A DNA stretch of 33,445 nt from a virus, in the IMG/VR virus record IMGVR_UViG_3300036715_004097, positions 1-33,445 of that record, one strand, 5' to 3'. Below, in pieces: positions 2,846 through 24,682 of the stretch. The notes under the pieces were generated by a model. That model was not told the DNA's origin, did not search any database, and saw only the letters and a program-made list of their open reading frames with translations. Within the stretch, counting starts at the first letter, position 1. Each line of letters opens with the position of its first letter. The translations under genes were made by a program, and so were the position numbers.

Positions 2846-2865
2846 GCGGTGTAGCAGCGAAGGAC
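2846..2865 (+). repeat. 20-base element upstream of portal gene, copy 1
   Basis: GCGGTGTAGCAGCGAAGGAC is repeated exactly at 21552-21571. Here it lies between the terminase stop and the portal GTG, with 22 bases between its last base and the start codon. The same 22-base distance is found before the endolysin ATG. The flanking sequences differ, so the element itself appears conserved. A late promoter or other transcription signal is the simplest reading. Confidence 0.7.
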
Positions 2866-2887
2866 AAAAGCCGACGACGTTCGCGTT

Positions 2888-5344
2888 GTGGCCAAGCGCA
2901 CCCTCTCACGCAAGACGCTCAGCCGGGCCGACGAGGAGCCATTCGCCGGGCCCGACTTGCGCCTGACGGCTGACGGGCGGCTTGCGCTTGGGCCGCAGGA
3001 GATTGGCGCGACGGGTACCGCCAACTCCTTCGGAGACCTCCTCACCGAGTACAACCCGGCCCTCACCTATCAGCAGGGCTACGGCACGCCGGGCTCTCGC
3101 AGCTGGGGCGCGTGGGAGTACTTGCGCCGCACCAACCCCTGGGTGGCGCAGGGGCTCGAGTTCGTCGCCTCGCCGATTCGCGACGCGTCAATCGGCGTGC
3201 AGGTGGCGACACACGAGTCCCTGCCAGAGGAACTGGCGGCGAAGCAAGCCGACTTCGTTCGCTGGGCTCTCACTGAGGCGCTGTCGCCCGCCATCAGCGA
3301 CCTGCTCCAGTCGATGACGAAGTCGGGGCTCAACGACGGCTTCGAGCTGCGCGAGCTCGTCTGGGGCAGCGTCAAACACCCGTCTCTCCCGGGCGGCATC
3401 GGCAACAGCGTCGTGCGCCTGGCCGAGCGCCTGCCGTCGACGCTCATCTACCAAGCGTGGCACGAGGAGAATGGCCAACTGGTGGGCGTACGGCAGCGTG
3501 CGCCCTTCGCCGGTGCGTGGCGCATCGTCGAGATTCCCGTGGAGAAAGTGAGCCTCTTCAGCTGGGGCCGAACCGGGAACAACTACGCCGGCTACTCGGT
3601 GTGGCGGCCGGTTTTTTACATCACGCAGGTGCAGGAGCAGATCCTCAAGATGCTCGGAATCACGCTGACGCGCGAGGGCGCCGGCGTGCCGACGGCGGTG
3701 TCGCAGGGTGCGGACGCCGCCAACCTCAACGACAAGCAGCGCAAGGCGCTGGCGCGGCTGCTCCAGAATCTCGTGTACCACGAGAACGCCAGCGTCGTGA
3801 TGCCGAGGGGCTGGGACATCAAGTGGGTCTACAGCCCCGGCGCCAACAAGAGCCACGTGCTCGAGGCGTGGCGCGACCTCGGCATCGTCGTCCTCCAAAT
3901 GGTGGGCGCGCAGCAGTTGACACTGGGCACGGGTGGTACTGGCTCCCGTGCTGTCGGCCAGACGCATGATGCGCAGTCACTTGTTTTCGTGCAGTCCGTG
4001 GTTGCCGCGCTGGAGTCGTGCCTCAATGGTCGCGCGGGCGCTCTCGAGACGGGCCTCGTGCGCAAGCTGGTGGACGCCAACTGGGGCCCGCAGCCGGCGT
4101 ACCCGAAGCTGACGATTTCCCTGAAGCGGCCGCAGCTCGGACCCCTCGAGAAAATGCAGGCGGTACAGGCCGCAGTCGGTGCCGGCGCACTCACCGTCAC
4201 CGCCGACGACGAGAACGCGTTCCGCGAAGACCTCGGCCTTGAGCCAATCGACGCCGAGGCACGCGACGAAGAGAAGGCCAAGCGCGCCGCCCTTCGTCCG
4301 CCCGTCGCAGCCGTGCCTCCCGGGCAGCCCGCTCAGACGCCCAACGACGACTCAAGCCCAGGTCAGTCGCCTGCCGCACGTGCGCCGGCCGACAAGGAGG
4401 AGAACCAGCTTCCTCTGGGCACCTCTCGTGGCGCGTGCGGTTGCACCACGCACCGTCGCCTCGCTCGAGGTGGACAGCCCTTCACGCCGTCTCGGGCCCT
4501 GCGTCCCGGCGAGGAGAGGCTCGACCTCGCGGCGATTGACTCCTTCCTCAACAGCGCTCGCCATGACTTCGAGCAGCGCGTACGCCCCGTCGTCGTCGAG
4601 ATGTTGGTGAAGGCGCAGCCGGCCATTCACCGCGCGATGGCCGAGGGCAAGCCGGCCGACGTGGCGAAGGTGCCGCTGGACACCTCGCGGCTGTCGGACG
4701 CCATCGACGCATTCCTCACTGCCTGTCGCGCCGAGGGCAACCGGCAGGTGCGGGGCGAGCTACGCAAGGGCGCCGGGCCCGACATCGCGGAGAAGCGCGC
4801 CGAGGGAGAGCCCGCGGTGGCGCCCACGAAGCTGGCGGCCGCTGGCGACGACGAGGACGACGAGGGCAAAGAGGCCGACAACTCGCCCGAGGAAGAGGCC
4901 GACGAGCTGCTCCAGCACCAGCGTGACGCGCTCCTTCGCCGCATGGAGTCGCGCCTCGAAGGGCAGCTTGAGCAGGAGGCCATCGACGCGAAGCGCACCG
5001 GCGGCGACGCCTCCGAAGTCGTCTCGCGCACCGTCGAGGATCAGCTCGACTCGGGCGCCTTCCGCGCGGACGCGGGCACCGTCGTCACCAAGGCCTGGAA
5101 TGCCGGGCGCGACGAGGCCGCGAAGCAGCTGGGTGGCGTGGCGGCTGTGCAGTACTCAGCCATCCTCGACGGCAAGCAGTGCGACGAGTGCGCGGCGATG
5201 GACGGCGCCACGGCCGACTTCGAGAGCGCGGAGCATGACGCGATGGTGCCGCCCAACCGCGACTGCGAGGGCGGCGACAACTGTCGCTGCTGTCTCGTCT
5301 ACCTCACGGCCGATCAGGCCCCCAACGACGGGAGCGACGAATGA
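2888..5344 (+). CDS. Portal protein fused to MuF-type head morphogenesis domain
   Basis: An 818-residue protein. Residues about 40-430 match the DUF935 / Mu gp29 portal family in layout (SWGAWEYLRRTNPWVAQGLEFV, later LNDKQRKALARLLQN and LEAWRDLGIVVLQMV). Portals form the dodecameric DNA gate at one head vertex. After a linker and a highly acidic coiled stretch (about 648-700), residues 754-805 carry the zinc-like C-terminal signature of Mu gpF / SPP1 gp7 proteins: YSAILDGKQCDECAAMDG, then PPNRDCEGG and CRCC. These are separate genes in Mu. GTG 2888 is chosen because a TAG at 2852 closes the frame and no other start lies between. Its ribosome binding site is poor. The stop overlaps the next ATG. 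Confidence 0.88.
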   Translation: MAKRTLSRKTLSRADEEPFAGPDLRLTADGRLALGPQEIGATGTANSFGDLLTEYNPALTYQQGYGTPGSRSWGAWEYLRRTNPWVAQGLEFVASPIRDASIGVQVATHESLPEELAAKQADFVRWALTEALSPAISDLLQSMTKSGLNDGFELRELVWGSVKHPSLPGGIGNSVVRLAERLPSTLIYQAWHEENGQLVGVRQRAPFAGAWRIVEIPVEKVSLFSWGRTGNNYAGYSVWRPVFYITQVQEQILKMLGITLTREGAGVPTAVSQGADAANLNDKQRKALARLLQNLVYHENASVVMPRGWDIKWVYSPGANKSHVLEAWRDLGIVVLQMVGAQQLTLGTGGTGSRAVGQTHDAQSLVFVQSVVAALESCLNGRAGALETGLVRKLVDANWGPQPAYPKLTISLKRPQLGPLEKMQAVQAAVGAGALTVTADDENAFREDLGLEPIDAEARDEEKAKRAALRPPVAAVPPGQPAQTPNDDSSPGQSPAARAPADKEENQLPLGTSRGACGCTTHRRLARGGQPFTPSRALRPGEERLDLAAIDSFLNSARHDFEQRVRPVVVEMLVKAQPAIHRAMAEGKPADVAKVPLDTSRLSDAIDAFLTACRAEGNRQVRGELRKGAGPDIAEKRAEGEPAVAPTKLAAAGDDEDDEGKEADNSPEEEADELLQHQRDALLRRMESRLEGQLEQEAIDAKRTGGDASEVVSRTVEDQLDSGAFRADAGTVVTKAWNAGRDEAAKQLGGVAAVQYSAILDGKQCDECAAMDGATADFESAEHDAMVPPNRDCEGGDNCRCCLVYLTADQAPNDGSDE
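4160..4190 (+). repeat. 31-base exact match to 25478-25508
   Basis: These 31 bases, inside the portal gene (codons for about residues 425-434), recur without mismatch at 25478-25508. There they lie on the non-coding strand of a leftward gene. In the portal frame they encode QAVQAAVGAGAL. In the leftward frame their complement encodes CAGTDCGLYR. Both readings look like functional protein, so neither copy is plainly debris. Confidence 0.9.
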
Positions 5345-6702
5345 GTACGCGCGGAGCACTCCTTGAGGCAGCTCGTCAGCTGACGGGCAGGGCGCGCGCG
5401 GAGACGGTGCGCTGGCTCGGCGAAGTCGACGAGGAAACCGTTGCCAACCTCCAGGCGGAGTCGGTGCGCCTCGGGCTTCCGCTGCGTCAGGTGTTGCGCC
5501 TGCGGGCGAAGGCGATTCAACAGGCCGGGCGCGTGTCCGCGGACCAGCTCGCCTCCGGCGTCATTCGTCTCTCGTCTACCGCTGCGGTCCTCTTCCGGCT
5601 CGAGGGCGTCGGCGTCGTGGACCCAGGCGACGCGAAGGGCCCATCGAAGGCGGTGTGGTGCCAGCTCTTTGTCGCGGGCACGCGCTACCGACCGGATTTC
5701 CCGGATGGCTCCATCACCTTCGACGCGTCCTTCTTCGACGCGATGATGGCCAACTGGAAGACGTACCAGGCGAAGGGCGGCAAGCCGCTGCCCCTCGACT
5801 ACGCGCACGACGAGTCAGGCATCGCCTCGGGCTGGATCCAAGAGCTGGAGATGCGGCCGGGCGAAGACGGAACGCCGGTGCCGTGGGCGCGCATCGAGTG
5901 GACCGACAGGGCCCGCGCCGCGATCCAGGCGAAGGAGCTTCAGTACCTCTCGCCGACGTTCAGCTGCGACGGCTGGGACCCAACCACCGGCCAGCGCCAG
6001 GGCCCGACGCTCTACGGCGCGGCGCTGCTCAACACCCCCTTTCTTTTCGATCTGCCGCGCGTGGCGGCGAGTCGTGAAGCCGTCCCTTCCACGCATTCAC
6101 CGGGGCCCGAGCCCCGCACGGAGTCACACATGCTGAAGAAGACGCTGCTCGCCCTCGGGCTCCCCGAAGGCACCACTGAAGATGAGGCGCTCAAGGCGCT
6201 GGCGGAGATGGCCGGCGAGAAGGTGAAGCTGGGCGCGGAGACGAAGGCGCACGTCGTGGCGCTCGAGTCGATGCGCGTCGATCTGGCCGCCGCGAAGGCC
6301 GAGGGCGCAAAGGCGCTGGCCGAGGCGAAGGTGCTGCGCGAGGAGGGCGAGAAGCAGAAGCTGGGCGCCCTCTGCGATGAGCTCGTCGCCAAGCACCACG
6401 TGCTGCCGGCGCAGCGCGACGCCGTGACGGAGTACGCGCGCGCTGTCGGTATCGACGCCGCCCGTGGCTTCTTCACCAAGCTGTCGGTGGTGCCAACCGG
6501 CGAAGTCGGCGTGAAGGGCACGCCCGCCGCGGACAAGAAGCCGCACGAGGCCGCCGACGAGTTCAACGCCCTCGTCGACGAGGAACTGAAGAAGGGCGTG
6601 AAGCCTCAGGTGGCGATGTCCCGTCTGCAGAAGGCGCACCCCGCGCTGTGGTCCATCGCGCGCAACGCGAAGCCGGCCTCCTTCAGTCCCGTCGAGGAGT
6701 GA
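5341..6702 (+). CDS. Mu gpI-like prohead protease with scaffold domain
   Basis: A 453-residue protein. Residues about 105-240 have the Mu gpI protease pattern: ITFDASFFDAMMANWKTY, then PLDYAHDESGIASGWI (about 152-167), a WTDRARAAI helix, and QYLSPTF (about 201-207). These proteases cleave scaffold and head proteins during prohead maturation. From residue 264 the sequence becomes charged and helical (KVLREEGEKQK), as in the scaffold region that Mu gene Z makes from the same frame. An unusual 100-residue helical N-terminal extension precedes the protease. It starts at an ATG overlapping the portal stop (ATGA). Confidence 0.85.
   Translation: MSTRGALLEAARQLTGRARAETVRWLGEVDEETVANLQAESVRLGLPLRQVLRLRAKAIQQAGRVSADQLASGVIRLSSTAAVLFRLEGVGVVDPGDAKGPSKAVWCQLFVAGTRYRPDFPDGSITFDASFFDAMMANWKTYQAKGGKPLPLDYAHDESGIASGWIQELEMRPGEDGTPVPWARIEWTDRARAAIQAKELQYLSPTFSCDGWDPTTGQRQGPTLYGAALLNTPFLFDLPRVAASREAVPSTHSPGPEPRTESHMLKKTLLALGLPEGTTEDEALKALAEMAGEKVKLGAETKAHVVALESMRVDLAAAKAEGAKALAEAKVLREEGEKQKLGALCDELVAKHHVLPAQRDAVTEYARAVGIDAARGFFTKLSVVPTGEVGVKGTPAADKKPHEAADEFNALVDEELKKGVKPQVAMSRLQKAHPALWSIARNAKPASFSPVEE
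6130..6702 (+). CDS. Possible internal scaffold product (Mu Z-like)
   Basis: An in-frame ATG at codon 264 of the protease gene begins MLKKTLLALGLPEG, with CGGAG seven bases upstream. Starting here would give a 190-residue helical scaffold without the protease. Mu makes scaffold Z in just this way from gene I, so an internal start is plausible. The sequence does not prove it is used. Confidence 0.4.
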   Translation: MLKKTLLALGLPEGTTEDEALKALAEMAGEKVKLGAETKAHVVALESMRVDLAAAKAEGAKALAEAKVLREEGEKQKLGALCDELVAKHHVLPAQRDAVTEYARAVGIDAARGFFTKLSVVPTGEVGVKGTPAADKKPHEAADEFNALVDEELKKGVKPQVAMSRLQKAHPALWSIARNAKPASFSPVEE

Positions 6703-6747
6703 GCGTCTCGCTCGCCCTTCGCTTCACCACTCACAGGAGAAAACACC

Positions 6748-7134
6748 ATGTCGTCACGCTTCAATATGTTGGGCTCTGAGCAGCTGGGCCTCACGGCCGG
6801 CGCTGCCATCACCAAGAATCGTTTCGTCAAGCTGTCGGCAGCGGAGACTGTCATCAACACCGCGGCTGCGACGGACATCCCATTGGGCGTCGCCACCGAG
6901 GCGCCGGCCAACACGTTCCCGTGTCCGATTCAGATCATCGGCGTCGCGAAGGTGGAGGCGGGCGCTGCCGTCGCTGCCGGCGCGCAGGTGTCGTCTGACG
7001 CCTCGGGCCGCGGCATCACCGCCGCTGCCTCCAGCGTCTCGGCCGGCATCGCCATCACCGCCGCGACGGCGGCCGGCGAAATCTTCGCGGTGCTCCTGCA
7101 CTGCGGCCCCAACGTCAACGGCCCCGTCAACTAA
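6748..7134 (+). CDS. Head decoration / capsid cement protein
   Basis: A 128-residue Ala/Gly/Thr-rich beta protein with an excellent CAGGAG site before the ATG. The pattern (GLTAGAAITKNRFVKLSA, then PLGVATEAPA, then VEAGAAVAAGAQVSSDASG, ending GEIFAVLL) is that of DUF2190-like capsid cement proteins. These sit at the threefold or quasi-threefold points of HK97-type capsids and brace them. Its position just before the major capsid gene is the usual one. A hairpin follows in the gap. Confidence 0.75.
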   Translation: MSSRFNMLGSEQLGLTAGAAITKNRFVKLSAAETVINTAAATDIPLGVATEAPANTFPCPIQIIGVAKVEAGAAVAAGAQVSSDASGRGITAAASSVSAGIAITAATAAGEIFAVLLHCGPNVNGPVN

Positions 7135-7141
7135 CCCCTTC

Positions 7142-7164
7142 GCCCGGGCACTCGTTGCCTGGGC
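7142..7164 (+). terminator. Strong hairpin before the capsid gene
   Basis: GCCCGGGCA, a five-base loop, then TGCCTGGGC: a nine-pair stem with one G-U pair. No T-run follows, so it may act as a processing or stability element rather than a full terminator. It lies between the decoration and capsid genes. Confidence 0.5.
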
Positions 7165-7188
7165 AACACCCTCACCAGGAGCACGCAC

Positions 7189-8172
7189 ATGCCTTTGGAC
7201 CCCTCACAGTTTCAGACGCCGGACCCGCTGGCGAACCTCTCCATTCGCGCGATGAATTCCCGGGAGGACTTCATCGCCGACTTCGTCTTCCCGCCCGTGC
7301 CCGTCCAGCAGCGCCAGTACAGGCGGTACCAGTACGACCTCAACAACAAGCGGGAGCGCCCGCTCGCGGTGAAGGTCGGCACCAAGACGAAGGCGAACAT
7401 GGTCGACTACAACGTGACCAACGCCACGGGCGAAGTGTCCGTGCGCCGCCTCGCGGCCGAGTGGGACCCGCAGGATGCGAAGGACTTCGACAAGTCCGTC
7501 AGCGACCTTCAGACGGACGCGGCCCTCACCCTCACCGAGCAGCTGTGGATTGCTCGCGAGCGCGAGGTCATCAACAAGATCAACGCCGTCGGCAACTTCG
7601 CCACCGGCCTCAGCACCACCCTCACCGCGGGCACCACCCGCTGGGGCGACGGCTCGACGGCCAACCCGGTGGGCGATGTCATCGCGGCACGCGCCGCCGT
7701 GCGCAGCGCCTGCGGCGTCAATCCCGACAGCATCGCGATGTCGTGGACGATGTTCGAGAAGCTCAAGGCGCTCGCGTCCATCATCGACCGCGTGAAGTAC
7801 ACGCAGCCCGGCGCCGCGCCCGACATCAACATCTTCAAGGGCCTCTTCGGCGTGCAGAACATCTTCATCTGCGGCGGCGTCTCGACGACGGCGAACGAAG
7901 GTGCGGCGACGCAGGCGCTCAGCGACATGTGGGGCAACTACGTCCTCGTCTTCAAGCAGGGCCAGGTCGGCCTGCGGCAGATGGGCTTCGGCTACAACTT
8001 CACACTCCAGGAGGGCATGTATTCGAAGGCGTGGCAGGACCCGCAGAAGGGCGCGCAGCTCCCGATGCAGGGCCTCGAGATGGGCTGGTGGTACGACCTC
8101 CAGCCCGGCTTCGTCGACTCCTTCGCAAGCGGCAAGTTCAACGCGGGCTACCTCATCGCCAACACCTACTGA
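7189..8172 (+). CDS. Major capsid protein
   Basis: A 327-residue HK97-fold-type capsid subunit, recognised from its order and composition. It has an N-terminal FIADFVFPPVPVQQ segment, a long TLTEQLWIAREREVINKI spine helix (about residues 112-129), a beta-rich domain with DSIAMSWTMFEKLK, and a C-terminal WWYDLQPGFVDSFASGKFNAGYLIANTY stretch. It follows a protease and decoration gene and precedes connector genes, the classic place. The ATG has CAGGAG upstream. Hairpins in both flanking gaps suggest that its mRNA is separately stabilised or trimmed, fitting the most abundant late protein. Confidence 0.88.
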   Translation: MPLDPSQFQTPDPLANLSIRAMNSREDFIADFVFPPVPVQQRQYRRYQYDLNNKRERPLAVKVGTKTKANMVDYNVTNATGEVSVRRLAAEWDPQDAKDFDKSVSDLQTDAALTLTEQLWIAREREVINKINAVGNFATGLSTTLTAGTTRWGDGSTANPVGDVIAARAAVRSACGVNPDSIAMSWTMFEKLKALASIIDRVKYTQPGAAPDINIFKGLFGVQNIFICGGVSTTANEGAATQALSDMWGNYVLVFKQGQVGLRQMGFGYNFTLQEGMYSKAWQDPQKGAQLPMQGLEMGWWYDLQPGFVDSFASGKFNAGYLIANTY

Positions 8173-8183
8173 GTCGTCTTCTC

Positions 8184-8220
8184 GAGGGGGCTTGAGCTGC
8201 TGTCTGGCTTGAGCCTCCTC
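8184..8220 (+). terminator. Hairpin after the capsid gene
   Basis: GAGGGGGCT pairs with AGCCTCCTC (nine pairs, one G-U) around a 19-base loop, 11 bases after the capsid stop. A direct repeat GGCTTGAGC lies inside it. There is no T-run, so it could be a partial terminator or an mRNA 3-prime stabiliser. Confidence 0.4.
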
Positions 8221-8260
8221 GCGAAGTCGCCTCACTCCTCACACCCAAGGAAACGATGAC

Positions 8261-8548
8261 ATGCCCCAGTTCTACGTGACGCACTCCTCAGTGAAGCACA
8301 CCGACTCGAAGGGGACGGCCATCCTTGCCGGCCCCGGCCAGTCCATCGAGCTGACGCAAGAGCAGGCCGACGGCATCAACGAGGCCGCGCGCGGCGGCCG
8401 CAGCGAGACGGATCCCGACGCGGGCGACGACCTCCTCGTCACGCCAGACGCCTGGGCGAAGATGCAGGCTGCGGCCAAGGCGCTGCGGAACATCGGCGCG
8501 GACCTCCCCGACGCCCTCGCCGGCACCCAGGCCTCCACGAAGGCCTGA
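8261..8548 (+). CDS. Small hypothetical head-region protein
   Basis: A 95-residue protein with no recognisable family. It opens with a short beta stretch (QFYVTHSSVKH), has an acidic middle (SETDPDAGDDLL), and ends in an amphipathic helix and an Ala/Thr tail. AAGGAA lies upstream of the ATG. It stands alone between two hairpins after the capsid gene, where phages often encode a minor head or head-completion protein. The function is unknown. Confidence 0.65.
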   Translation: MPQFYVTHSSVKHTDSKGTAILAGPGQSIELTQEQADGINEAARGGRSETDPDAGDDLLVTPDAWAKMQAAAKALRNIGADLPDALAGTQASTKA

Positions 8549-8555
8549 CGCCACC

Positions 8556-8588
8556 AGGCGGGCGCCTCCACCATTGGGCGCTCCGCCT
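8556..8588 (+). terminator. Probable terminator hairpin
   Basis: AGGCGG-GCGCC pairs with GGCGC-T-CCGCCT: eleven pairs with one bulged T and a ten-base loop. It is followed by TCCCCTTTCCC, a weak T-containing tract. It lies eight bases after the previous stop. Confidence 0.5.
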
Positions 8589-8613
8589 TCCCCTTTCCCG
8601 CAACGAGGCGCCC

Positions 8614-9027
8614 GTGGCTGACGAGACGACCACCACCCTGACGCAGCTCGCGCTGAGTGCGCCGGGAGGCATCGTGCTCGTGAAGATGATCGTCGACTGG
8701 GCCCTCGCCCGCGCAGAGCGCGCCGAAGCCGCCAAGAAGAAGGCCGAAGAAGAGGTGGGCGAAGTGAAGGAGCGCGAGGAGTCGGCGGCGACGAAGAAGC
8801 TGGAAGAGGTGCTGGCTGTCGTCACGAAGCTTCAGCAGGACTTCGCGGTGTTCGCCTCCACCTTCGCGCAACACCAGCGCGCCACCGATGACAAGTTCGG
8901 AGACCAAGCCGACGCAATCAGGAAGGTCGACGGGCGCGTGTCCGAGCTCGATCCCAGGCTGGCTCGCGTTGAGCGCGACATTGTCGAGATTCGCACCCTG
9001 ATGAGTCGCCCGCGGAGGACGCGATGA
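8614..9027 (+). CDS. Coiled-coil protein with possible membrane-like N-terminal helix
   Basis: A 137-residue protein starting at GTG. Residues about 10-32 form an apolar helix (LALSAPGGIVLVKMIVDWALA). Residues about 34-75 are a Lys/Glu/Ala coiled coil, and a second heptad-like part with regular Leu, Val and Ile runs to the C-terminus. The stop overlaps the next ATG. Small holin-like or connector-associated proteins have this shape, but position argues against a lysis role. Its job is unknown. Confidence 0.62.
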   Translation: MADETTTTLTQLALSAPGGIVLVKMIVDWALARAERAEAAKKKAEEEVGEVKEREESAATKKLEEVLAVVTKLQQDFAVFASTFAQHQRATDDKFGDQADAIRKVDGRVSELDPRLARVERDIVEIRTLMSRPRRTR

Positions 9028-9512
9028 CCGTTCAGACTTTCGCCGTCGATGCCGACAGTATTCGGCGCCACTACTTCCCGCACCTCGACTCCTTCAGCGC
9101 CAGCACCTCGCCGACGCTGGCGACGGTGACGGAGCGCATCACCCGCGCAGCGGCTCGACTCTCCGGGCAGCTGTATATGCGCAACGTCGACCCGACGACG
9201 ATTGTGGACACCACCAGCCCCGCCTGGGTGTGGTGCCAGGAGACGCTGAGTCTCATCGTCGCCATCCGCCTCGCGCAGGTGGTTTCCGGCGCCAACAGTG
9301 AAGCCGTGAAGGCGTGGCAGGCCGACCTGACGGAGCGCTTCCATGTGCTGTCCGACTCCGGCGAAGCCGCGCTGGGCGGTGGCGCTGACGCCTTCGGCCT
9401 GAGTGAGTCGGCGGGCCCGACTGACTTCATCAGCGAGTTGAGTCTCGACGTGGGCGACACGTCGCTCGCGTCGGACGTCTCGCCGGTGCTTCGCCGGAGT
9501 GACCTCCTGTGA
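9024..9512 (+). CDS. Head-tail connector protein (Mu gp36 / gp6-like)
   Basis: A 162-residue mostly helical protein. The N-terminal half (ADSIRRHYFPHLDSFSAS, then TVTERITRAAARLSGQL) and the central helix WVWCQETLSLIVAIRLAQVVSG resemble DUF1320 / gp6-type adaptor proteins that sit below the portal. It follows the capsid gene and precedes a virion morphogenesis gene, as expected for an adaptor. The ATG overlaps the previous stop (ATGA), and its own stop overlaps the next GTG. Confidence 0.68.
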   Translation: MTVQTFAVDADSIRRHYFPHLDSFSASTSPTLATVTERITRAAARLSGQLYMRNVDPTTIVDTTSPAWVWCQETLSLIVAIRLAQVVSGANSEAVKAWQADLTERFHVLSDSGEAALGGGADAFGLSESAGPTDFISELSLDVGDTSLASDVSPVLRRSDLL

Positions 9513-10045
9513 GCGTCGTCGGACTCAGAGTGACGTACACCGTCGGCCGCGAGACGGGCGACGACGTGGTGCGAAACATCGCCGTCGCCCTCGAGCGCGC
9601 GGGCGCCGAGGTGGCACAGTTCGGCAAATACGCCTTCCCGCATCTCATCCCCGTCTTTGAGTCCGCCGAGAAGCGCCAGTTCTCCGCCGAGGGTGCGGGC
9701 CCATCATCTGGCCACTGGGCGGCATTGAGTGCGGCCTACGCGAAGTGGAAGGCGAAGAAGTACCCAGGCAAGCCGGTGCTGGAGCGTAGTGGGAAACTGC
9801 GCAAGGCCCTCACCTCCAACGGCCCCAACGCCGTGCGCGACTACTCGGCGTCGATGATGAACTTCGGCACGACGGACGTTGAGTACGCATCGTTCCACCA
9901 GATGGGCACGCCTTTCATGCCGGCGCGCCCGCCCTTCGACTTCGACGCGCAGTTCGAGAAGGAGATGCGCCAGGCCGCGCAGCTCGGACTCATCGACGCC
10001 GTGCGCGCAGCGAAGTTGGACTCCATCGCCGAGGTGACCGAGTGA
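9509..10045 (+). CDS. Virion morphogenesis / tail completion protein (Mu gpG-like)
   Basis: A 178-residue protein matching the phage virion morphogenesis family in key blocks: HWAALSAAYAKWKAKKYPGKPVLERSGKLRKAL (about residues 69-101), then YASFHQMGTPFMPARPPFDF (about 130-149). The HQMGT...PARP block is a strong signature of Mu gpG and P2 gpS-like proteins, which take part in head-tail joining. It begins at a GTG overlapping the previous stop and ends overlapping the next GTG. Confidence 0.82.
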   Translation: MSVVGLRVTYTVGRETGDDVVRNIAVALERAGAEVAQFGKYAFPHLIPVFESAEKRQFSAEGAGPSSGHWAALSAAYAKWKAKKYPGKPVLERSGKLRKALTSNGPNAVRDYSASMMNFGTTDVEYASFHQMGTPFMPARPPFDFDAQFEKEMRQAAQLGLIDAVRAAKLDSIAEVTE

Positions 10046-11241: not shown

Positions 11242-11248
11242 GGAACAC

Positions 11249-12628: not shown

Positions 12629-12640
12629 AAGGACGTCACC

Positions 12641-13840: not shown

Positions 13841-13848
13841 GAGACAGC

Positions 13849-14292
13849 ATGGCCAATCTGACGCTGAAGAAGAAGGTGCGATACTTCCCGAGCATCCCGG
13901 GCAACCTCGAATTGCCGGAGGCGGAGCGCTTCCACTTGGTGGTGATGTCGGGGCTGCCGAAGGTGGTGCTCGAGCAGGTGGTGACGGACGCCACCGAGGC
14001 GGCACAGCGCGTCGACGTGACGGCCCTGACGGAGGCGCTGTCGCCGGCCGTGTCGCTGGGCGCCGTCAGCCTCGAGCTTGACGGCGTGGAGGTACAGGCA
14101 GTGGGCGACTACCTCACTGCATTGGTCGGGCAGTCGGGCCAGCCGCTCCTCTTCGAGTTGGTGCAGCGCGTGGTGGAGCTCAATTCCTTCAGCGGGGCGC
14201 GGGCCGTTTTCTCCGCGCCGCCGTCTGGTGGTACCGCTGGTACTGCCGCCCTGAGCACCGGGCAGGCCAGCGGGCAGACGGCGAGCCCTTGA
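13849..14292 (+). CDS. Tail assembly chaperone (lambda gpG-like)
   Basis: A 147-residue protein with a basic N-terminus (ANLTLKKKVRYFPSIPGNLELPEAERFHLVVMSGLPK), a helical centre, and a flexible Gly/Ala/Ser/Thr tail. Genes of this kind lie between the tail tube and tape measure in siphoviruses, and their products hold the tape measure before assembly. The true start is ATG 13849, just after the tube stop. The reading frame of the next gene (-1) is open well back into this one, as in G/GT frameshift pairs. Confidence 0.65.
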   Translation: MANLTLKKKVRYFPSIPGNLELPEAERFHLVVMSGLPKVVLEQVVTDATEAAQRVDVTALTEALSPAVSLGAVSLELDGVEVQAVGDYLTALVGQSGQPLLFELVQRVVELNSFSGARAVFSAPPSGGTAGTAALSTGQASGQTASP

Positions 14293-14591
14293 AGTGGCGC
14301 GCGGACCAGCGACAGGGCTGGTTCGGCTGGCGGCCCGACAGGGCCGGTGCGCAGCCTCTCCACGTGGCGAAGGTGGACCTGGACGAGGCACTGCGAGAGT
14401 CGAGAGAGGTGCTCAACCTGTGGTGGGTGGCGCGCCAGCACGAGGCGCCTCCGCTGTCGGGTGGCGTGCTGGACGCCTGGCCGGCGTGGCTGGCTGAGGC
14501 GCTGGCGGTGTGCAGGGACGAAGAGAGCGCGGTTACGTTGTTCGAGAGGAGTGTGGCGCATGGCCGACCTGAAGCTGACGCTCACCGGTGA
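14289..14591 (+). CDS. Trp-rich tail assembly chaperone (lambda gpT-like)
   Basis: A 100-residue frame beginning at a TTG that overlaps the stop of the previous gene (TTGA), in the -1 frame. It is rich in Trp (WFGWRPD, LNLWWVARQHEA, WPAWLAEAL) and ends 32 bases inside the tape measure gene. Many siphoviruses make the second chaperone by -1 slippage. No canonical slippery heptamer is visible here, but C-CCT-TGA at the stop could allow a one-tRNA slip onto CCC. Re-initiation at TTG is the other option. The gene is real by coding content and position; its expression mode is open. Confidence 0.58.
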   Translation: MKWRADQRQGWFGWRPDRAGAQPLHVAKVDLDEALRESREVLNLWWVARQHEAPPLSGGVLDAWPAWLAEALAVCRDEESAVTLFERSVAHGRPEADAHR

Positions 14592-16476
14592 GGACCGGGC
14601 CTCGCCCGCATTCAAGTCGGCGGCAGAATCTGCCACCGAACTGAGCAACGCAGCGAAGCAACTCTCTGAGGCTGCGGAGGCGCTGAAGGGGTCGACGAAG
14701 GGCGCGGGCGACGCCACCGACGAGGCGGCAGAGAAGGCCGCCAAGGCGACGGAGAAGTGGCGCGAAATCGGCGAGGTGCTGAAGAAGGGCGCTGAGCTGA
14801 CGTGGGAGCTGACGAAGAAGACGGTCGAGCTCTCCGAGGAGCAGGCGAAGGCGGACCGCCAGCTGAAGCTGGTGGCCGGCGACATGACGGACGCCTTCAA
14901 GGCTCAGGCGTCCGCGATGCAGGAGCAGCTCGGCGTCTCCGACGACATGGTGCAGAGGATGCAGCTCATCCTCCTGCGCTTCGGCGAGGCGCCCGCGGCC
15001 ATCGACAAGACGGTGCGCGCGCTGCTCGACTACTCGGCAGCGACGGGCGTTGACGCCGTTTCCGCCACCGAGACGCTGACGAGCAACGTCGAGACTGGGC
15101 GCAAGGCGTTCAAGGAGCTCGGACTCCAGTACGACTCGACGGGGCTGCGCTCGAAGGATCTCGAAGCCATCACCGGAGCGCTGGCGAAGAAGATTGGAGG
15201 CGCCGCCCAGGCTGATGCCGAATCGCTGACGGGCGCCTTCGCGAAGATGAAGGAGCAGATCTCCGAGGTGGGCGAAACCGTCGGCGGACACATCACCAAG
15301 CTGGTGCAGCGGACGGGCGTCGTCGAGAAGCTGACCTATGCGTTCAAATCGTGGAACACGGTGTTGGGCGGGGACGATGCGTACAACAAACTGAAGGAAC
15401 GAGAGAAGCTCTACGACGAGTTGCGCGCCATCGACGAGAAGATGGCGTCAGGGCGTACGCGGGGCTTCAGCGACGACGACCTCGATCAACGCCTCCTCAG
15501 CACGCGCAAGAGCGACATCGAGGTGAAGCTGGGCGTAATGCAGGCCGAGGTGAATGCGGCCAACGGCATGTCGCAGGCGCTTCCTTCCAGCAGCAGCGCG
15601 CCGCAGCAGACGGCGAAGTACGCAGAGCTTCAGAAGGCGGCGAAGGAACACGCCGACGAGATGCTAAAGATTTCGCAGAAGAACGCCGAGGACATGCGGC
15701 GCCTCCAGAAGTCCGAAGACGCGCTCGACGCTGCCGAAGCGGAGAAGGACGCGAAGGCGCTCGCCAACGTGCAGGAGGGCATCTTCAGGGACGCCGAGTT
15801 CGATGGCTGGGAAAAGGTGCGCGAGCAGTCGAAGAAGCAGCAGAAGGAGGACTTCGCGGACCTCATGAAGGCGAACGATCTGATGGTGAAGCAGATCCGC
15901 GATCGCGAAGAGGAGTGGAAGAAGGCCGGCGAGCAGCTCGGCGCGGCCTTTGGCAACGCCCTCGTCAGCGCCGTCGACCAGCTCGCCAGCGGCGGGAAGA
16001 TGGACCTCGGCGGCATCCTCGCGGGCATCCTCCAGACGGCCGGCAGCGTGCTGGGCGGCGTGCTTGGCTCCGTCGTCCCGGGCCTGGGTACCGCCCTCGG
16101 CGCCACCATCGGCGGCACGCTGGGTGGCCTCGCTGGCGCTGGCGTCAAGGCGGCGACGCGCACCTACCACGATGGCGGCTGGGTGGACGCGCCGCGACAC
16201 CACACCGGTGCGTGGATTTCGCCCGATGAGCAGCGCGCCATTCTCCAGCACGGCGAGCGCGTGCTGTCCCGGCGCGAGGTGCACGACATGGGCGGCCCAG
16301 CAGGCGTCGACGCTGCGGCGAAGGGCGGAAGCGGGGGCACTGGCGTCACGGTGCATGTCAACGCTTTCGACGGCTCCAGTGTGCGCGACTTCTTTGAGCG
16401 CGCGGGCGGACGTGCCGTCTTCGACGCCGTGCGCACCGGGCGCGGCCCCATGTCGGCGCTGCTGGGAGGGCGCTGA
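14560..16476 (+). CDS. Tail tape measure protein
   Basis: A 638-residue protein. The N-terminal third is Ala/Lys/Glu-rich coiled coil (KLTLTGEDRASPAFKSAAESATELSNAAKQL). A middle helical part follows, then a second coiled coil (about 360-480), a Gly-rich apolar segment (about 485-535, LGGVLGSVVPGLGTALGATIGG), and a conserved tail HDGGWVDAPRHHTGAWISPDEQRAILQHGERVLSR. Tape measures set tail length, and this size predicts a tail of roughly 90-100 nm. ATG 14560 has GAGGAG upstream and gives the standard KLTLTGEDRAS start, although the frame is open further back. Confidence 0.88.
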   Translation: MADLKLTLTGEDRASPAFKSAAESATELSNAAKQLSEAAEALKGSTKGAGDATDEAAEKAAKATEKWREIGEVLKKGAELTWELTKKTVELSEEQAKADRQLKLVAGDMTDAFKAQASAMQEQLGVSDDMVQRMQLILLRFGEAPAAIDKTVRALLDYSAATGVDAVSATETLTSNVETGRKAFKELGLQYDSTGLRSKDLEAITGALAKKIGGAAQADAESLTGAFAKMKEQISEVGETVGGHITKLVQRTGVVEKLTYAFKSWNTVLGGDDAYNKLKEREKLYDELRAIDEKMASGRTRGFSDDDLDQRLLSTRKSDIEVKLGVMQAEVNAANGMSQALPSSSSAPQQTAKYAELQKAAKEHADEMLKISQKNAEDMRRLQKSEDALDAAEAEKDAKALANVQEGIFRDAEFDGWEKVREQSKKQQKEDFADLMKANDLMVKQIRDREEEWKKAGEQLGAAFGNALVSAVDQLASGGKMDLGGILAGILQTAGSVLGGVLGSVVPGLGTALGATIGGTLGGLAGAGVKAATRTYHDGGWVDAPRHHTGAWISPDEQRAILQHGERVLSRREVHDMGGPAGVDAAAKGGSGGTGVTVHVNAFDGSSVRDFFERAGGRAVFDAVRTGRGPMSALLGGR

Positions 16477-16479
16477 GCC

Positions 16480-17298
16480 ATGGCCGCCTACGCCACCACC
16501 AACGTGCTCGCAGGCCTCGCTGCGGCCAACTTCACACCTGGCAGCGGCCCTGCCGACGCCACGCGCGGATACCTCAACGACTCGGCGATGGCGGCCCAGT
16601 ACGTCTTCACCGCGGCGGCGGCGGGGAACACCCTCGTCGTCGACCTCGGTGCGCCCGTGACGATGATCGGTTTCGGCATCCTCAACCACAACCTCGCGAC
16701 GATGGCGTCACCCGGCATCACGATTCTGGGGGCAGACGACGCGGGCTTCACGACGGGCGTTGTGATGCCCTTCAGTCCTACGACGGTGCCGACGACGGCA
16801 CCGTCGCAGAAGGAGTTCTGCGCCATCTTCAACCCAACCACGAAGCAGTACTGGAAGCTCACCTTCGGGTGGACCGGCACGTACGCGCTGAAGCTGGGCG
16901 AGCTCTTCGCCATCTCCGCAGCCGTCGGCGGCCTCACCACGCTGTCGCGCGGAAGCGTCGACGGCAGCGGCGAGACGGAGACGCTCCTGCTCAACTCGGA
17001 GCAAATGCAGACGGGCAACATTAAAGTCGCCTTCCTCGCCGGGCCCATTCGCTCAAGGCACTGGAAGACGGTCGACTTCACCGCAGCCCAGCGTGACGAG
17101 TTGCTCGCCCTGTGGCGCGCGGTGAAGGGGCCCGTCACGCCCTTCCTCTGGCTCGAGGCTGCCGTTGCGGGCGCATGCAACGACTGTCTCTTTGGGCGCC
17201 TCCAGCTTGACGCCTTCGCGTGGACGTGGGCCGACTACAACCTTGTGCAGCCGCCCGACTTCGTCCTCGTCTCTGAGGGCCGGGAGGTGGGCTCGTGA
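16480..17298 (+). CDS. Distal tail protein-like (Dit position)
   Basis: A 272-residue beta protein directly after the tape measure. The first half (AGNTLVVDLGAPVTMIGFGILNHNL) reads like a discoidin or carbohydrate-binding jelly roll, where a point of difference from ideal axes is mapped by a sequence such as KQYWKLTFGW. The second half (RSRHWKTVDFTAAQRDELLALWRAVKGPVTPFLWLEA) looks like the DUF2460-type or Dit-like ring part. Such proteins join the tail tube to the hub. Its stop overlaps the next GTG. Confidence 0.6.
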   Translation: MAAYATTNVLAGLAAANFTPGSGPADATRGYLNDSAMAAQYVFTAAAAGNTLVVDLGAPVTMIGFGILNHNLATMASPGITILGADDAGFTTGVVMPFSPTTVPTTAPSQKEFCAIFNPTTKQYWKLTFGWTGTYALKLGELFAISAAVGGLTTLSRGSVDGSGETETLLLNSEQMQTGNIKVAFLAGPIRSRHWKTVDFTAAQRDELLALWRAVKGPVTPFLWLEAAVAGACNDCLFGRLQLDAFAWTWADYNLVQPPDFVLVSEGREVGS

Positions 17299-19553
17299 GC
17301 ACCTTCGCACAGCTCGTTTCGCGCCCGTCGCCTGGGGTGGCCTACTTCCTCGACGTCTCGCTCGACCGCTTCGCCACGACCTACAAGCGCTATGCGACGC
17401 ACTACGCGAGCGCAATGGACCTCGTCAGCCCGGCGACGGAGGTGCGTATCGTGCAGCACGGCATGGGCGTGCTTCAGCGCGCCTTCGCGCCAGACCACGG
17501 CGTGACGGCATCCACCATCGAGGTGACGCTAGCCAACACCGACGGTGGTGCTGACTGGTTTGTCGACCGCACCAGCTTCGCCAACGTGCAGAAGGCGCAG
17601 TTCCGTCTTACGTGTCTCGCCTACGACGCCAACAATCCGAGCGACTCCGCTTCGAAGGTGCTGGGGCTTTTTGTTTGTATGAATCCTCCGGTGCGAAACG
17701 GCTCGCGCATCGAACTCTCGCTCGCCGACAACGTACTGGGTGACGCGGGCGAGGTGGTCAGCACCCCGACGATTCGAGACTGGTGCGCCATTGACGACCC
17801 CTGGCGGCCCACCGACTTGGCGGCCATCGTCAATGGTGGCCTCACGGATTACGGCGGAGGCCTGTACGCTCAGCCTGACCAGTGGGGACAAGTCAAAGGC
17901 TTCAACTTCGACTCGCCGATTCAGCTCGCGTTCGGCACAGACATCACCCCCGTGCGTGTGTACCAGGACTGCTTCGTTATCTGCGCCGTTGCGGGGTCTG
18001 CCGGCTCGCTTCCTATCAGCGACATCACGGCGGTCAACTACGCGCCCGTCCCGCTGTCGGCGGCGCTGCGTGCTTCGAACGGAAGCTATACCTCTTCGTT
18101 GTACTCGGCCGGGAACCTGCCGCAGCGGTACGCGCGATACGACCCAAACGGTAACCCAATCGGCTCGTCTATCTTTTGGACCGTCCGACGCACGCCCGAT
18201 ATCGTGAAGAACGGGAAAACGTTCCACTTGTTGTGGATCCAGATCAGCCTCACCACGCAGAACGGCGGCTCTGAGTACCTGGCGAAGCAAGGCTTCGACG
18301 TCAGCGACGTCGCCTCCCTCTTCTACGGCTACGGCGTCTATGACTTGCTGTCGCCCATCACCGTCCACGGCGCGCTCTTCAGCCACCCCGCCAACGACAT
18401 CACCGCCGACACAGGGCAGCCAACACCCTCAGTGGCGCTTGACCTGCTCACCTACTACACGCGCGCCACGGTGCCGATCGACACGGCCAGCTTCACGGCG
18501 ATGGCGAAACTTCGAGCGCTGCCCGCAAATGGCGTCGTCGTGCCAGGCGCGATGTTGAACAAGACGCAGTCACTCGGCGATGGCGCGATGGTGAAGGCCC
18601 TTCGCGGCCTCTGCTCGGCTGGGAACTTCGACATCTTCGTGCGGTGGGACGGTACCTTCGTGGCCTCTGCGCAGGTGTCCGACTTCTCCACCCTCGCCGC
18701 GACGCCGGCCGTCCTCGACGAAACGCTCTTCAAGGCTGACGTGACGGACCGAATCCCCTCGGTGACGGAGCGCGGAGCGCCATTCAATCGGCTCTTCTTC
18801 TCGAAGGGCGGCCAGCGTTACGGCCCCTACGACGACGCCGCCAGCATCGCCGCTTGGGGGAAGGTCATCTCGACGGAAATCAACGTCGATTGGTGCCTCT
18901 ACCTGCCTACCGGAATCGGCCGCGACAACGCCAGTATTCGCACGCTCGTCACGGCCACTACCTGGTTGAACGGGCTCAACTACGAGCTGGGCGACTACGT
19001 CACGTTCAGCTGGAGCCGCGGCGCCCTCGGCGGCCCCTACACGGCCAACCTGTTCCGTATTGAAGGCATCGCGCTCGACCCGGCCAGTTCGACGGTGCAA
19101 CTCACGCTCTCATGGCAGAGCGACCTCGGAGCCCCGAGTAACCTGCCATACCTGCTCGACGACGAGACGCTGGCCACGCGGGTGGCCTACTCGGCGGGGC
19201 GCACCATCACGCTCACCACCACGTCAACAACCGTCGTCTTCGCATCAGGCTCACTCCTCACCGACGGCGTCACGGCCGGCGACACCATTATCGTGCTCGA
19301 CGCCGCCGAGACGTCGCCCACGGGCTTTCAGCGCAACCGCGTGTTGAACATCATCAGCATCACCGACGCCACGCATCTGGTGGTCGATGCGAGCGACTTC
19401 GGCACGGGCGGACCCTTCACGCTCGCCGGCTGGGAGATTCGCCGCGGGGCGCTCACTTACCGGGCCAACGCTGCCGTCTTCGGCAAGCTCTCCAGCGCCA
19501 CCGGCTTCTTCTCCGACGGCACCACCATCGCCAACAAGCTGCTCGACGGGTGA
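17295..19553 (+). CDS. Tail hub / baseplate protein
   Basis: A 752-residue protein beginning at GTG overlapping the previous stop. The N-terminal half (VAYFLDVSLDRFATTYKRYATHY, then ITDYG-type beta repeats) and the long central part (LDLLTYYTRATVPIDTASFTAM, then ALRGLCSAGNFDIFVRWDGTF) have the layout of siphovirus tail-associated hub proteins. The last 150 residues are a small beta domain (TITLTTTSTTVVFASGSLLTDGVTAGDTIIVLD). No peptidase or lysozyme motif is visible. Position between the Dit-like protein and tip proteins supports a hub role at the centre of the tail tip. Confidence 0.68.
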   Translation: MSTFAQLVSRPSPGVAYFLDVSLDRFATTYKRYATHYASAMDLVSPATEVRIVQHGMGVLQRAFAPDHGVTASTIEVTLANTDGGADWFVDRTSFANVQKAQFRLTCLAYDANNPSDSASKVLGLFVCMNPPVRNGSRIELSLADNVLGDAGEVVSTPTIRDWCAIDDPWRPTDLAAIVNGGLTDYGGGLYAQPDQWGQVKGFNFDSPIQLAFGTDITPVRVYQDCFVICAVAGSAGSLPISDITAVNYAPVPLSAALRASNGSYTSSLYSAGNLPQRYARYDPNGNPIGSSIFWTVRRTPDIVKNGKTFHLLWIQISLTTQNGGSEYLAKQGFDVSDVASLFYGYGVYDLLSPITVHGALFSHPANDITADTGQPTPSVALDLLTYYTRATVPIDTASFTAMAKLRALPANGVVVPGAMLNKTQSLGDGAMVKALRGLCSAGNFDIFVRWDGTFVASAQVSDFSTLAATPAVLDETLFKADVTDRIPSVTERGAPFNRLFFSKGGQRYGPYDDAASIAAWGKVISTEINVDWCLYLPTGIGRDNASIRTLVTATTWLNGLNYELGDYVTFSWSRGALGGPYTANLFRIEGIALDPASSTVQLTLSWQSDLGAPSNLPYLLDDETLATRVAYSAGRTITLTTTSTTVVFASGSLLTDGVTAGDTIIVLDAAETSPTGFQRNRVLNIISITDATHLVVDASDFGTGGPFTLAGWEIRRGALTYRANAAVFGKLSSATGFFSDGTTIANKLLDG

Positions 19554-19556
19554 CCT

Positions 19557-20540
19557 ATGCCTTTCAGCGTAATTCCCTCGAAGGCATGGAAGGACTCGCT
19601 CGGTCCCCAGGCCCTCACCACGATGAGCGAAAACCTCCGTTACCTGCGGCGAGCCTCTGCGCGCGAGCACCGTTGGAGCAACGGACAGCACAACGCCTTC
19701 GAGGTGCCGCGCATCGTCGGGCGCATCGTGGCCAACGCTTGGACGGGGAGCTACCCCGGCGAGTTCACCTTCTCGCACCCCGGGACGGGCCAGTACCGCT
19801 TCGTCTTCGCCGCTGGCGGAAATGTTGCCCTGTCGGTTGGCTCTCTCGACCCTTCGCTGCTGCGCGCGCAGCTCAACGTCCTGCGCGAAAACCAGGTGCC
19901 GTACCTCGCGACATATACGACGTACTTCTCTGCCGGCCTGCTCTACCTCGACGTTTTCGTGCGGCGCCTCACCAGCACGCTGGGTGTCGCGGGGAACGCC
20001 TGGGCACTCATCGACGGCGCCGTCGATGTCGCCATCCACTGTCCTCCGGTGCCCGACGCCATCACCTATGCCGCGCTGCCCCAGGCGTTCACTCGAGGGG
20101 CGTCGCTCCCTGCCGTAGCGTCGAATGCTGCCGACTGGGCGACGCAGGTGCAGGAGGCTGGAGAGATTCAACGCATCCTCTCGGCCGAGCACGTTTCGAC
20201 GACGGGCGAACACAACGTGCTCGAGGTGGCCAAGGCCTCGGGCCTCGTCACGTGGAACGGCACCGCATACAGCACGACGTCGAGCACCATCACCGGCATC
20301 ACGCGGGTGTCGGCGGGCTCGCTCCAACTCACGCATGCGACGTGGGCGACGCTGACGGGCGCTTTCGTCTCCCCCGACTACGCACGGACGAATGGCGGCT
20401 CGCCGACGGTGCCCATCATCGTCAACGCGCGGCAGCAGACGACCGGCATCATGAATGTCTACATCTACGCCTGGGACCAGGTGAACCTGTGGTGGCAAAT
20501 GGCAGACGCCGACTTTTTTATCGCGATGCACGGAGACTGA
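19557..20540 (+). CDS. Tail tip protein with an internal repeat
   Basis: A 327-residue protein. Two copies of a motif REH(4)G(Q/E)HN(2)EV(4)G occur: REHRWSNGQHNAFEV near residue 36 and AEHVSTTGEHNVLEV near residue 212. Each is followed by a short beta stretch that reads like a receptor-facing fold (SYPGEFTFSHPGTGQYRFVF and AYSTTSSTITGITRVSAGS). Such duplication is common in tail tip and adhesin parts. It starts three bases after the hub gene stop and ends next to a GTG start. No known family is assigned. Confidence 0.6.
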   Translation: MPFSVIPSKAWKDSLGPQALTTMSENLRYLRRASAREHRWSNGQHNAFEVPRIVGRIVANAWTGSYPGEFTFSHPGTGQYRFVFAAGGNVALSVGSLDPSLLRAQLNVLRENQVPYLATYTTYFSAGLLYLDVFVRRLTSTLGVAGNAWALIDGAVDVAIHCPPVPDAITYAALPQAFTRGASLPAVASNAADWATQVQEAGEIQRILSAEHVSTTGEHNVLEVAKASGLVTWNGTAYSTTSSTITGITRVSAGSLQLTHATWATLTGAFVSPDYARTNGGSPTVPIIVNARQQTTGIMNVYIYAWDQVNLWWQMADADFFIAMHGD

Positions 20541-21068
20541 GTGGCGACCTATACGAAAATCCCGAAGCCGACTTCAGCCAACTACGCCCTCGGCTACCAA
20601 ACGTTCAACACCGCAACGCAGAATCAACTGGCGCTGCGCGATGCCTGGGTGCTGCGGCATGGCGCAGTCGATTTTCAGCCGCCGCCCGCCAACGCACAGA
20701 GCCGACCCGACTGGACAACGTGGCTGGGGCGCCACAACGATGAGCGAATCCCTCGAGACGTCGTCTACGTGCGACCGCGCGTCAGTGGAGCGTCGTACGC
20801 GGTAGATATGCTGGCAGGGCACCATGCGACGGCTGTTTCGCGCTTCGCTGCGGGCGCCTACTTCGTCAGGGTGCTGGGGCTGCAAAACTACTGGGGCGTC
20901 GCCGCCATCGCGGCAGGAAACTTGGCAGTGTGGGCGATGGCTCGCTCCGACTACCCACCCTACGGAAGCACGTCGCAGTCAGGCATCTGGGTGTTCACCT
21001 ACTCGATGGGTGCGTCGTCGCTCGTTGCTGTCGACGCCCCATTCACCCTCGCCGTCTACGGCAGCTAG
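20541..21068 (+). CDS. Tail tip or adhesin-like protein
   Basis: A 175-residue protein starting at GTG directly after the previous stop (TGAGTG). It has a short helical N-terminus (QNQLALRDAWVLRHGAVDF), a GRHNDERIPRDVVYVRP segment, and a C-terminal beta region rich in Ala, Gly, Tyr and Trp. The RHNDERIPRDV stretch recalls the HN-x-x-EVP motif of the preceding gene, so the two may share a fold. As the last tail gene it is a candidate for host recognition. Its stop overlaps the stop of the leftward lipoprotein gene by four bases. Confidence 0.58.
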   Translation: MATYTKIPKPTSANYALGYQTFNTATQNQLALRDAWVLRHGAVDFQPPPANAQSRPDWTTWLGRHNDERIPRDVVYVRPRVSGASYAVDMLAGHHATAVSRFAAGAYFVRVLGLQNYWGVAAIAAGNLAVWAMARSDYPPYGSTSQSGIWVFTYSMGASSLVAVDAPFTLAVYGS

Positions 21069-21493
21069 CGCGAGCTGCACTGGATCTGGTTCGTCTCGTG
21101 GAATCGACTGCTGGCGCACCACGAGCACGCGAAGCCGACACCGGTGCCGCCATCCACGGAGATGGCGCTCGCCGACGCGTCCCGCTCCCCGCCGCTTCCG
21201 CCTGGAGCGTCGCAGGAGACAAGAGGGCCGCCGTCCGCATAGGCCAGGCACGAGGTGGTTTGGCCGATTTCTGCGCAGCCATCGCACTGCACCTCAACCC
21301 ACTCTCCGGCCGAACACACGCGCATCGTGTTGGACCGCAGGTCGACGTGGAGGGAGCAGAAGGCGCTGTCGGCGCCGAGCTCGCCGCCGGGTGACTTCTC
21401 GAAGAGATAGTCCGGCTTCACGCACCCGCCGTCGGGCAAGTGCTTCCCGTCACCGCACGCGCTCGCCACCACGGCCACCACCAGAAGCATCAT
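21065..21493 (-). CDS. Leftward lipoprotein (moron candidate)
   Basis: A 142-residue protein with a short lipoprotein signal peptide, MMLLVVAVVASACGDG. The lipobox ASAC puts the lipidated cysteine at residue 13, followed by Gly, not the Asp inner-membrane retention signal. The mature part is Cys-rich (for example CDGCAE, SCLAY, FACSWC), suggesting several disulphides. ATG 21493 is chosen because GGAG lies eight bases upstream; an ATG two codons earlier is too close. It is the only leftward gene among late rightward genes. Phage lipoproteins often block superinfection or alter the host surface. That role is an inference, and the ligand is unknown. Confidence 0.72.
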   Translation of the reverse strand: MMLLVVAVVASACGDGKHLPDGGCVKPDYLFEKSPGGELGADSAFCSLHVDLRSNTMRVCSAGEWVEVQCDGCAEIGQTTSCLAYADGGPLVSCDAPGGSGGERDASASAISVDGGTGVGFACSWCASSRFHETNQIQCSSR

Positions 21494-21551
21494 TCGCATG
21501 TCTCCACCGTAGCAGCGCCGGTAACCGCGCGCGCCACTGGATGCACGTACG

Positions 21552-21571
21552 GCGGTGTAGCAGCGAAGGAC
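21552..21571 (+). repeat. 20-base element upstream of endolysin, copy 2
   Basis: GCGGTGTAGCAGCGAAGGAC, identical to 2846-2865, again with 22 bases between its end and the start codon. A partial relative, ACCGTAGCAGCGCCGG, lies at 21505-21520 in front of the leftward lipoprotein gene. The separate GGAGGG nearer the ATG is the ribosome binding site here, so the element is probably not for translation. Confidence 0.7.
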
Positions 21572-21593
21572 GCTCGCGGCGGAGGGTAGCGCC

Positions 21594-23569: not shown

Positions 23570-23613
23570 GGGGTCTCCTGAAGGAGGGAAGGCGGCAGGC
23601 TCCAGCAGTGGGC

Positions 23614-23664
23614 CATTGCGGTGCTCCCTGGTGCTGCGGCGTGATTGCCGCGATCAGTGATTTA
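23614..23664 (-). promoter_or_regulatory. Leader copy 2 with hairpin and Shine-Dalgarno
   Basis: Matches 25948-26002 with a few changes. On the minus strand it has AAATCACTGATC, the hairpin GCGGC-AATCAC-GCCGC (23651-23636), GCAGCACCAGGGAGCACC, and an ATG at 23616. That ATG opens only about 41 codons. The -10 sequence of copy 1 is absent and replaced by the antisense holin segment, so this leader looks like a displaced duplicate. Confidence 0.6.
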
Positions 23665-24679: not shown

Positions 24680-24682
24680 GGG

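Follow-up and report, generated by a model that had tools for sequence, protein, structure and literature searches.

The 20-base element GCGGTGTAGCAGCGAAGGAC, which occurs twice in the window (the whole stretch of DNA analyzed here, an entire IMG/VR virus record of 33,445 bases and 68% GC), very probably marks two late promoters. One would serve the head block and the other the lysis block, with GCGGTGTAGCAGCGAAGGAC as the upstream (-35 region) recognition element of both. The full reading, in which the two late promoters combine a phage-specific -35-region element with leaderless mRNA and a phage activator, is also considered probable. Each promoter would have an element of about 15–20 bp at approximately -42 to -23 and, some 10 bp further on, a degenerate sigma70-type -10 box (nAnnnT, -12 to -7), with transcription starting at or beside the start codon to give a leaderless mRNA. 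Host RNA polymerase would read the element with the help of a phage late activator, most likely the HTH-type protein encoded before terS. The repetition and its position, the agreement of copies inside a genome and their divergence from one genome to the next, the -10-like columns, the missing Shine-Dalgarno sequences and the small gene ahead of terS are seen directly in the sequences; from these we infer that the sites are promoters, that they act late, that their transcripts are leaderless and which factor reads them. In a limited search of the open literature, nothing was found on how late genes are switched on in this phage group, and little seems to be known. The anatomy described here yields exact predictions of transcription starts, as well as pairs of elements and candidate factors in several lineages, and thus offers a natural experiment on how a regulator and its sites could shift specificity together.

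The element and its genomic setting

The late genes of the window run rightward in the order terS, terL, portal with a Mu F domain, Mu-like protease, capsid and tail. After the tail genes come a leftward lipoprotein gene and then the lysis block, and the early genes, including those for RecT and YqaJ, are transcribed leftward. The first copy of the element separates terL from the portal gene; the second lies after the lipoprotein gene and ahead of that for the probable endolysin. The relevant features are the following:

791–1102, + strand: small basic protein with a predicted HTH, candidate late regulator; immediately before terS, with similar proteins at the same place in relatives
1484–2842, + strand: terminase large subunit (phrog_38, E 7.8e-68; Terminase_6C); ends 3 bases short of element copy 1
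2846–2865, + strand: first copy of the element, in the upstream/-35 region of the late promoter proposed for the head block (portal); spans -42 to -23 relative to the GTG; exact repeat with positional counterparts in six relatives
2876–2881, + strand: proposed -10 box GACGTT, from the 12-site column analysis; A at -11 and T at -7 from the start codon
2888–5344, + strand: portal with C-terminal Mu F-like domain (Portal_Mu, Phage_Mu_F); opens the head block; starts with GTG and lacks a Shine-Dalgarno sequence
21065–21499, - strand: leftward lipoprotein gene adjoining the second proposed promoter, recognized from its sequence; a leftward lipoprotein gene is at the same place in G123 and G127
21552–21571, + strand: second copy of the element, in the upstream/-35 region of the late promoter proposed for the lysis block; spans -42 to -23 relative to the ATG; exact repeat
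21582–21587, + strand: proposed -10 box GAGGGT; A at -11 and T at -7; overlaps a possible Shine-Dalgarno sequence, GGAGG
21594–22121, + strand: probable endolysin of 175 aa, first gene of the lysis block; relative G132, in its lysis region, and phage ctUh1700 have homologues

The original prediction was of an exact 20-base repeat situated 22 bases before both start codons, with unrelated flanks, and a mismatch scan and the coordinates confirm it. Both copies end 22 nt upstream of the start codon (GTG 2888 for the portal, ATG 21594 for the probable endolysin), and exact identity stops at either edge of both. There is a single copy per promoter, and it is not palindromic. Beyond the two copies, the window contains no match with up to 3 mismatches (0 found, 0.00 expected) and no further site with up to 5; the next best sites have 6. 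A partial copy had also been described at 21505–21520, before the leftward lipoprotein gene. This amounts to just the 9-mer GTAGCAGCG at 21509–21517, which is oriented rightward and so does not point at the leftward gene; it is regarded as chance or vestigial, and a lipoprotein promoter at 21505–21520 was rejected on the grounds of its 9-nt length and wrong orientation. A cos or pac site was likewise rejected, since the second copy sits at the lysis block, as was the idea that the TAG within the element is the terL stop codon, since terL has its own earlier stop in the window, G123 and L189.

Of the two gene labels in the prediction, "portal" is borne out by the Portal_Mu match. "Endolysin" is plausible, but unproven: the product has no Pfam or PHROG match, and its homologues are all unannotated, with C52 and H132 invariant among them. 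The lipoprotein gene breaks the rightward late block, so that a fresh rightward promoter would be needed downstream of it. Leftward lipoprotein genes are found at the same place in the window (21065–21499), G123 (33838–34239, - strand) and G127 (24462–24887, - strand), in each case before a rightward lysis or post-tail block, and the three proteins look unrelated to each other. Their position is possibly a conserved cargo slot, perhaps one for superinfection exclusion.

Could the repeat have arisen by chance? Across 60 runs of an order-4 Markov simulation of the window, the length of the longest exact repeat ranged over 15–19 nt, and the portal leader box of the window had chance matches elsewhere of at most 15 nt (200 simulations). 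Chance does not account for the GCGGTGTAGCAGCGAAGGAC repeat. However, the window also has other exact repeats of 20–31 nt, mostly in the early region, so the repeat of a 20-mer is by itself no proof of function.

Position, but not sequence, is kept in relatives

When portal, endolysin and TerL were used as single queries against IMG/VR, no relatives were found; these surfaced only through alignment searches (TerL, portal and clade TerL). The TerL alignment led to an Archangium-labelled MAG contig (L093, G001; TerL 69%, portal 50%, capsid 47%), in which the structural block has the same order as in the window, and to a Chloroflexi-labelled contig (L094, G002; TerL 57%). The portal and clade TerL alignments led to the IMG/VR contigs G123 (3300042480_001415), G127, G124, L189 and G132 (3300029930_000020). 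The three other element-bearing lineages (G123, G127/G124 and G132) have portal proteins that are 45–50% identical, and G127 and G124 are mostly 87–96% identical over their aligned parts. A capsid-alignment scan of IMG/VR gave no more close relatives, and a draw of 117 genomes from the phylum added nothing useful. The nearest relative of the phage group sits in the Archangium-labelled MAG, and the host of the window phage is probably a myxobacterium. G123 and G122 (3300034166_001928) share 24.5 kb at 99.98% identity, with different source numbers.

The exact 20-mer GCGGTGTAGCAGCGAAGGAC was absent from the IMG/VR scan. What the relatives have instead is an element of their own in the corresponding place. 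In G123, GGTGTAGCTCGGCGGTCCAC precedes the portal gene and recurs unchanged upstream of ATG 34331, the start of the first rightward gene past a leftward lipoprotein gene; two changes distinguish a third copy, which lies before ATG 37214, at the start of a block of small membrane proteins and a DUF5675-like protein (a label assigned by eye). These copies are at +16183, +34292 and +37174, and the near-identical second assembly gives the same three. The G127/G124 lineage has GGTGTTGAGGCGTAGCAG, which in G127 lies at +7697 (portal) and at +24908, upstream of ATG 24946, which likewise starts the first rightward gene beyond a leftward lipoprotein gene. In G132, TTGACGGTGAAACG is found at +1902 (portal) and at +18468, before ATG 18505, which opens the block containing the endolysin homologue. 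In each of the three relative lineages with contigs extending as far as the lysis or post-tail block, the lineage's own element recurs where that block begins, and in these lineages it lies 36–40 nt ahead of the start codon. In L189 and G002, the matching position upstream of the portal gene carries GGTGTAG (single portal-leader matches), and G001 has a short core match only, TGGTAGC at exactly -39, which is weak. Counted in this way, the portal element is present in six relatives, clearly in G123, G127/G124, G132, L189 and G002 and weakly in G001. No such element was found before the portal genes of the distant relatives L194 and L197.

Copies are alike within a genome and unlike between genomes, with a short GGTGT core in most lineages. 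The observed match length was reached in 0 of 200 simulations for the window, G123 and G127 alike, and in 5 of 200 for G132, where the repeat is just 14 nt long. In all 12 sites, the first core base of the element is 36–41 nt away from the start codon, and the spread within a genome is at most 1; the sites are not all independent, since some portal leaders are homologous to one another. The expectation of conservation in related phages was therefore borne out for position, which is kept at 36–41 nt before the portal start in six relatives, but not for the sequence of the 20-mer or an 11-mer. Conserved position and repetition together with a lineage-specific sequence is what one would see for a binding site evolving along with a phage-specific factor.

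These relatives also bear on the possibility that the element has no regulatory function and is instead a recombination boundary or a short patch that was duplicated. Exact repeats of 31, 25 and 20 nt elsewhere in the window, and the placement of the element at module borders, are in keeping with such an origin. On the other hand, three other lineages have different repeats in corresponding places at a near-equal distance to the start codon, and a shared recombination boundary should have retained its sequence as well as its position. This explanation is largely refuted by the relatives already and is considered highly improbable.

A -10-like box and probable leaderless starts

Alignment of the 12 sites by their start codons, which are predicted ones, puts the most information in four columns: -38 and -36, which are in the element, and -11 and -7, which are downstream of it. 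Of the 3,696 two-column pairs in the range -22 to -1, A(-11)/T(-7) ranks first, with a nominal p of 5e-9 and a corrected p of ~2e-5; the corrected value is preferred because the position range was picked after the sites had been viewed. The invariant bases of the sigma70 -10 box are A(-11) and T(-7), counted relative to the transcription start. The two columns fit these bases if transcription starts at the start codon.

An nAnnnT box with its T at -9 to -6 is found in 10 of the 12 element genes, against 1 of 42 controls and 8.7% of all ATG/GTG codons, and none of 200,000 leader shuffles reached 10 boxes. The enrichment persists without the window sites (8/10, p 1.3e-7) and for the non-portal sites only (4/5, p 2.7e-4). 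The box is imperfect in one G123 site, which lacks T(-7), and in L189, which lacks A(-11), and T(-12), which is expected in TANNNT, is not conserved across the element genes. A scan of window regions for consensus sigma70 promoters and terminators gave no promoter, as would be expected if the -10 box is GC-rich. With the relatives' own repeats at the same module starts, the -10-like box supports the interpretation, put forward in the original prediction, of GCGGTGTAGCAGCGAAGGAC as a late promoter or activator site.

Element genes also differ from other late genes in how translation would begin. A Shine-Dalgarno sequence of at least 4 nt is present in 1 of 10 element genes, compared with 41 of 49 controls, which were late genes of the window and relatives with well-placed starts (Fisher p 1.7e-5). 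The sole exception is the lysis gene of the window (GGAGG, spacing 8), where a leaderless message would not use the sequence. It is likely, judging from these patterns, that the messages of the element genes are leaderless and start at the start codon. Leaderless mRNA would explain both the fixed distance from element to start codon and the missing Shine-Dalgarno sequences. In a survey of bacterial genomes, a TANNNT box some 12 bp upstream of the start serves as the mark of leaderless genes, and its middle bases are uninformative where GC is high (PMC3160421). The element genes resemble these in box position, in the A/T pattern and in the absence of a Shine-Dalgarno sequence; they differ in that the first T is not conserved, that a phage-specific upstream element is present, and that the pattern is confined to element genes, nearly all other late genes having a Shine-Dalgarno sequence. 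If the leaderless reading holds, leaderless first genes and Shine-Dalgarno-led genes would be mixed within one late operon.

The fixed distance to the start codon would also be seen if the element acted in RNA. Transcription would then start further upstream, and the 20-mer would be a 5'-UTR signal, such as a translation enhancer, a site for a regulatory protein or sRNA, or an antitermination site. Another translation signal could indeed be expected for genes that lack a Shine-Dalgarno sequence, and there is a precedent for repeats tied to translation starts in the Start-Associated Sequences (SAS) of cluster K mycobacteriophages, which are found in 11–19 copies with one sequence cluster-wide (PMC3203893). 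Like the SAS, the elements described here are short, asymmetric and repeated, and they accompany the start codons of some genes only; unlike them, they occur in 2–3 copies, lie further upstream and have their own sequence in each lineage. The SAS is located at the translation initiation site itself (PMC3203893), whereas both window copies of GCGGTGTAGCAGCGAAGGAC end 22 nt before the start codon. Moreover, the -10-like box is downstream of the element, where it would be expected if the element is untranscribed, and neither leader folds unusually compared with shuffled sequences. An RNA-acting element is considered unlikely.

What reads the element?

A promoter with this anatomy could also be controlled by a phage repressor, with the element as its operator, or could function unaided through a phage-specific -35 sequence. 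The same anatomy would result in either case. At the -35 position, the G132 and G127 elements contain TTGACG and TTGAGG, respectively, 17–18 nt from the -10 box, and the leftward early region encodes an HTH-type protein (26075–26626) and ribbon-helix-helix-like proteins. However, there is one non-palindromic copy per promoter, and no TTGACA-like sequence was found in the window or G123 elements, which host polymerase alone would be unlikely to read. The operator version differs from the activator reading chiefly in the sign of the factor. Taken together, these alternatives to an activator site seem improbable, and an activator remains the preferred reading.

As for the activator itself, a small basic protein is encoded directly before terS in the window, G123, G001, G127, G124 and G002, which is every lineage covering that spot (the G132 contig is cut there). 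These proteins are alike in their N-terminal part (MSxR..ERR..A..A..ER.K) and divergent in the HTH part. Pfam HTH_23 scores above the cut-off in G002, weakly in G123 and G001, and not at all in the 791–1102 protein of the window, for which the predicted model is helical with a possible HTH (pLDDT 76) and gave no significant match in Foldseek. What ties the HTH-type protein to the element is position and parallel divergence alone, and it is put forward tentatively as the late activator that reads the element. More speculatively, the protein would direct host polymerase to 2–3 leaderless promoters per genome, factor and element would change together, and the late promoters of the relatives would be mutually incompatible. 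In the 33.4-kb record, which is possibly incomplete, there is no unassigned ORF of the size of a T7-type single-subunit RNA polymerase.

A parallel in gene order comes from the RinA/Ltr late regulators of Gram-positive (staphylococcal) phages, which are encoded just before terS (PMC13123087). Both systems have a small basic protein in that position (here a candidate regulator), late structural and lysis genes downstream, and a repeated sequence upstream of a sigma70-type -10 box. They differ in that RinA/Ltr phages make one long late transcript from a promoter with several direct repeats, whereas the phages described here would have 2–3 promoters per genome, each with a single element of 15–20 bp and probably leaderless, and in that the candidate regulator is not recognized as a RinA/Ltr member.

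The mRNAs of Thermus phage P23-45 are leaderless. In its middle and late transcription (gp39; PMC7403470), as proposed here, the host polymerase acts with a phage factor and leaders are short or missing, but P23-45 has extended -10 promoters, in contrast to an upstream element that varies from phage to phage.

Other repeats in the window

A 31-nt exact direct repeat links 4160–4190, on the sense strand of the portal gene, with 25478–25508, in an early-region ORF read on the opposite strand. Two small leftward-encoded proteins (23708–23938 and 25183–25518, - strand) look by eye like ribbon-helix-helix paralogues and are possible early regulators; Pfam gives weak matches for the first product and none for the second. 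A leader repeat of 58 nt (imperfect, 88%) precedes early genes on the leftward strand at 25945–26002 and 23611–23664, with a third, partial copy at 24995–25023; it contains a hairpin, GCGGCAATCACGCCGC, and an SD-like AGGGAG ahead of the ATG. There is a 20-nt exact repeat at 23620/25954. A 42-nt repeat (93%) at 23395–23436 and 25036–25077 encodes a similar KEAxSVNRWLLS tail on the leftward strand, and a 25-nt exact repeat is found at 23395/25036. The region from 22.3 to 26 kb resembles a patchwork of short duplicated pieces.
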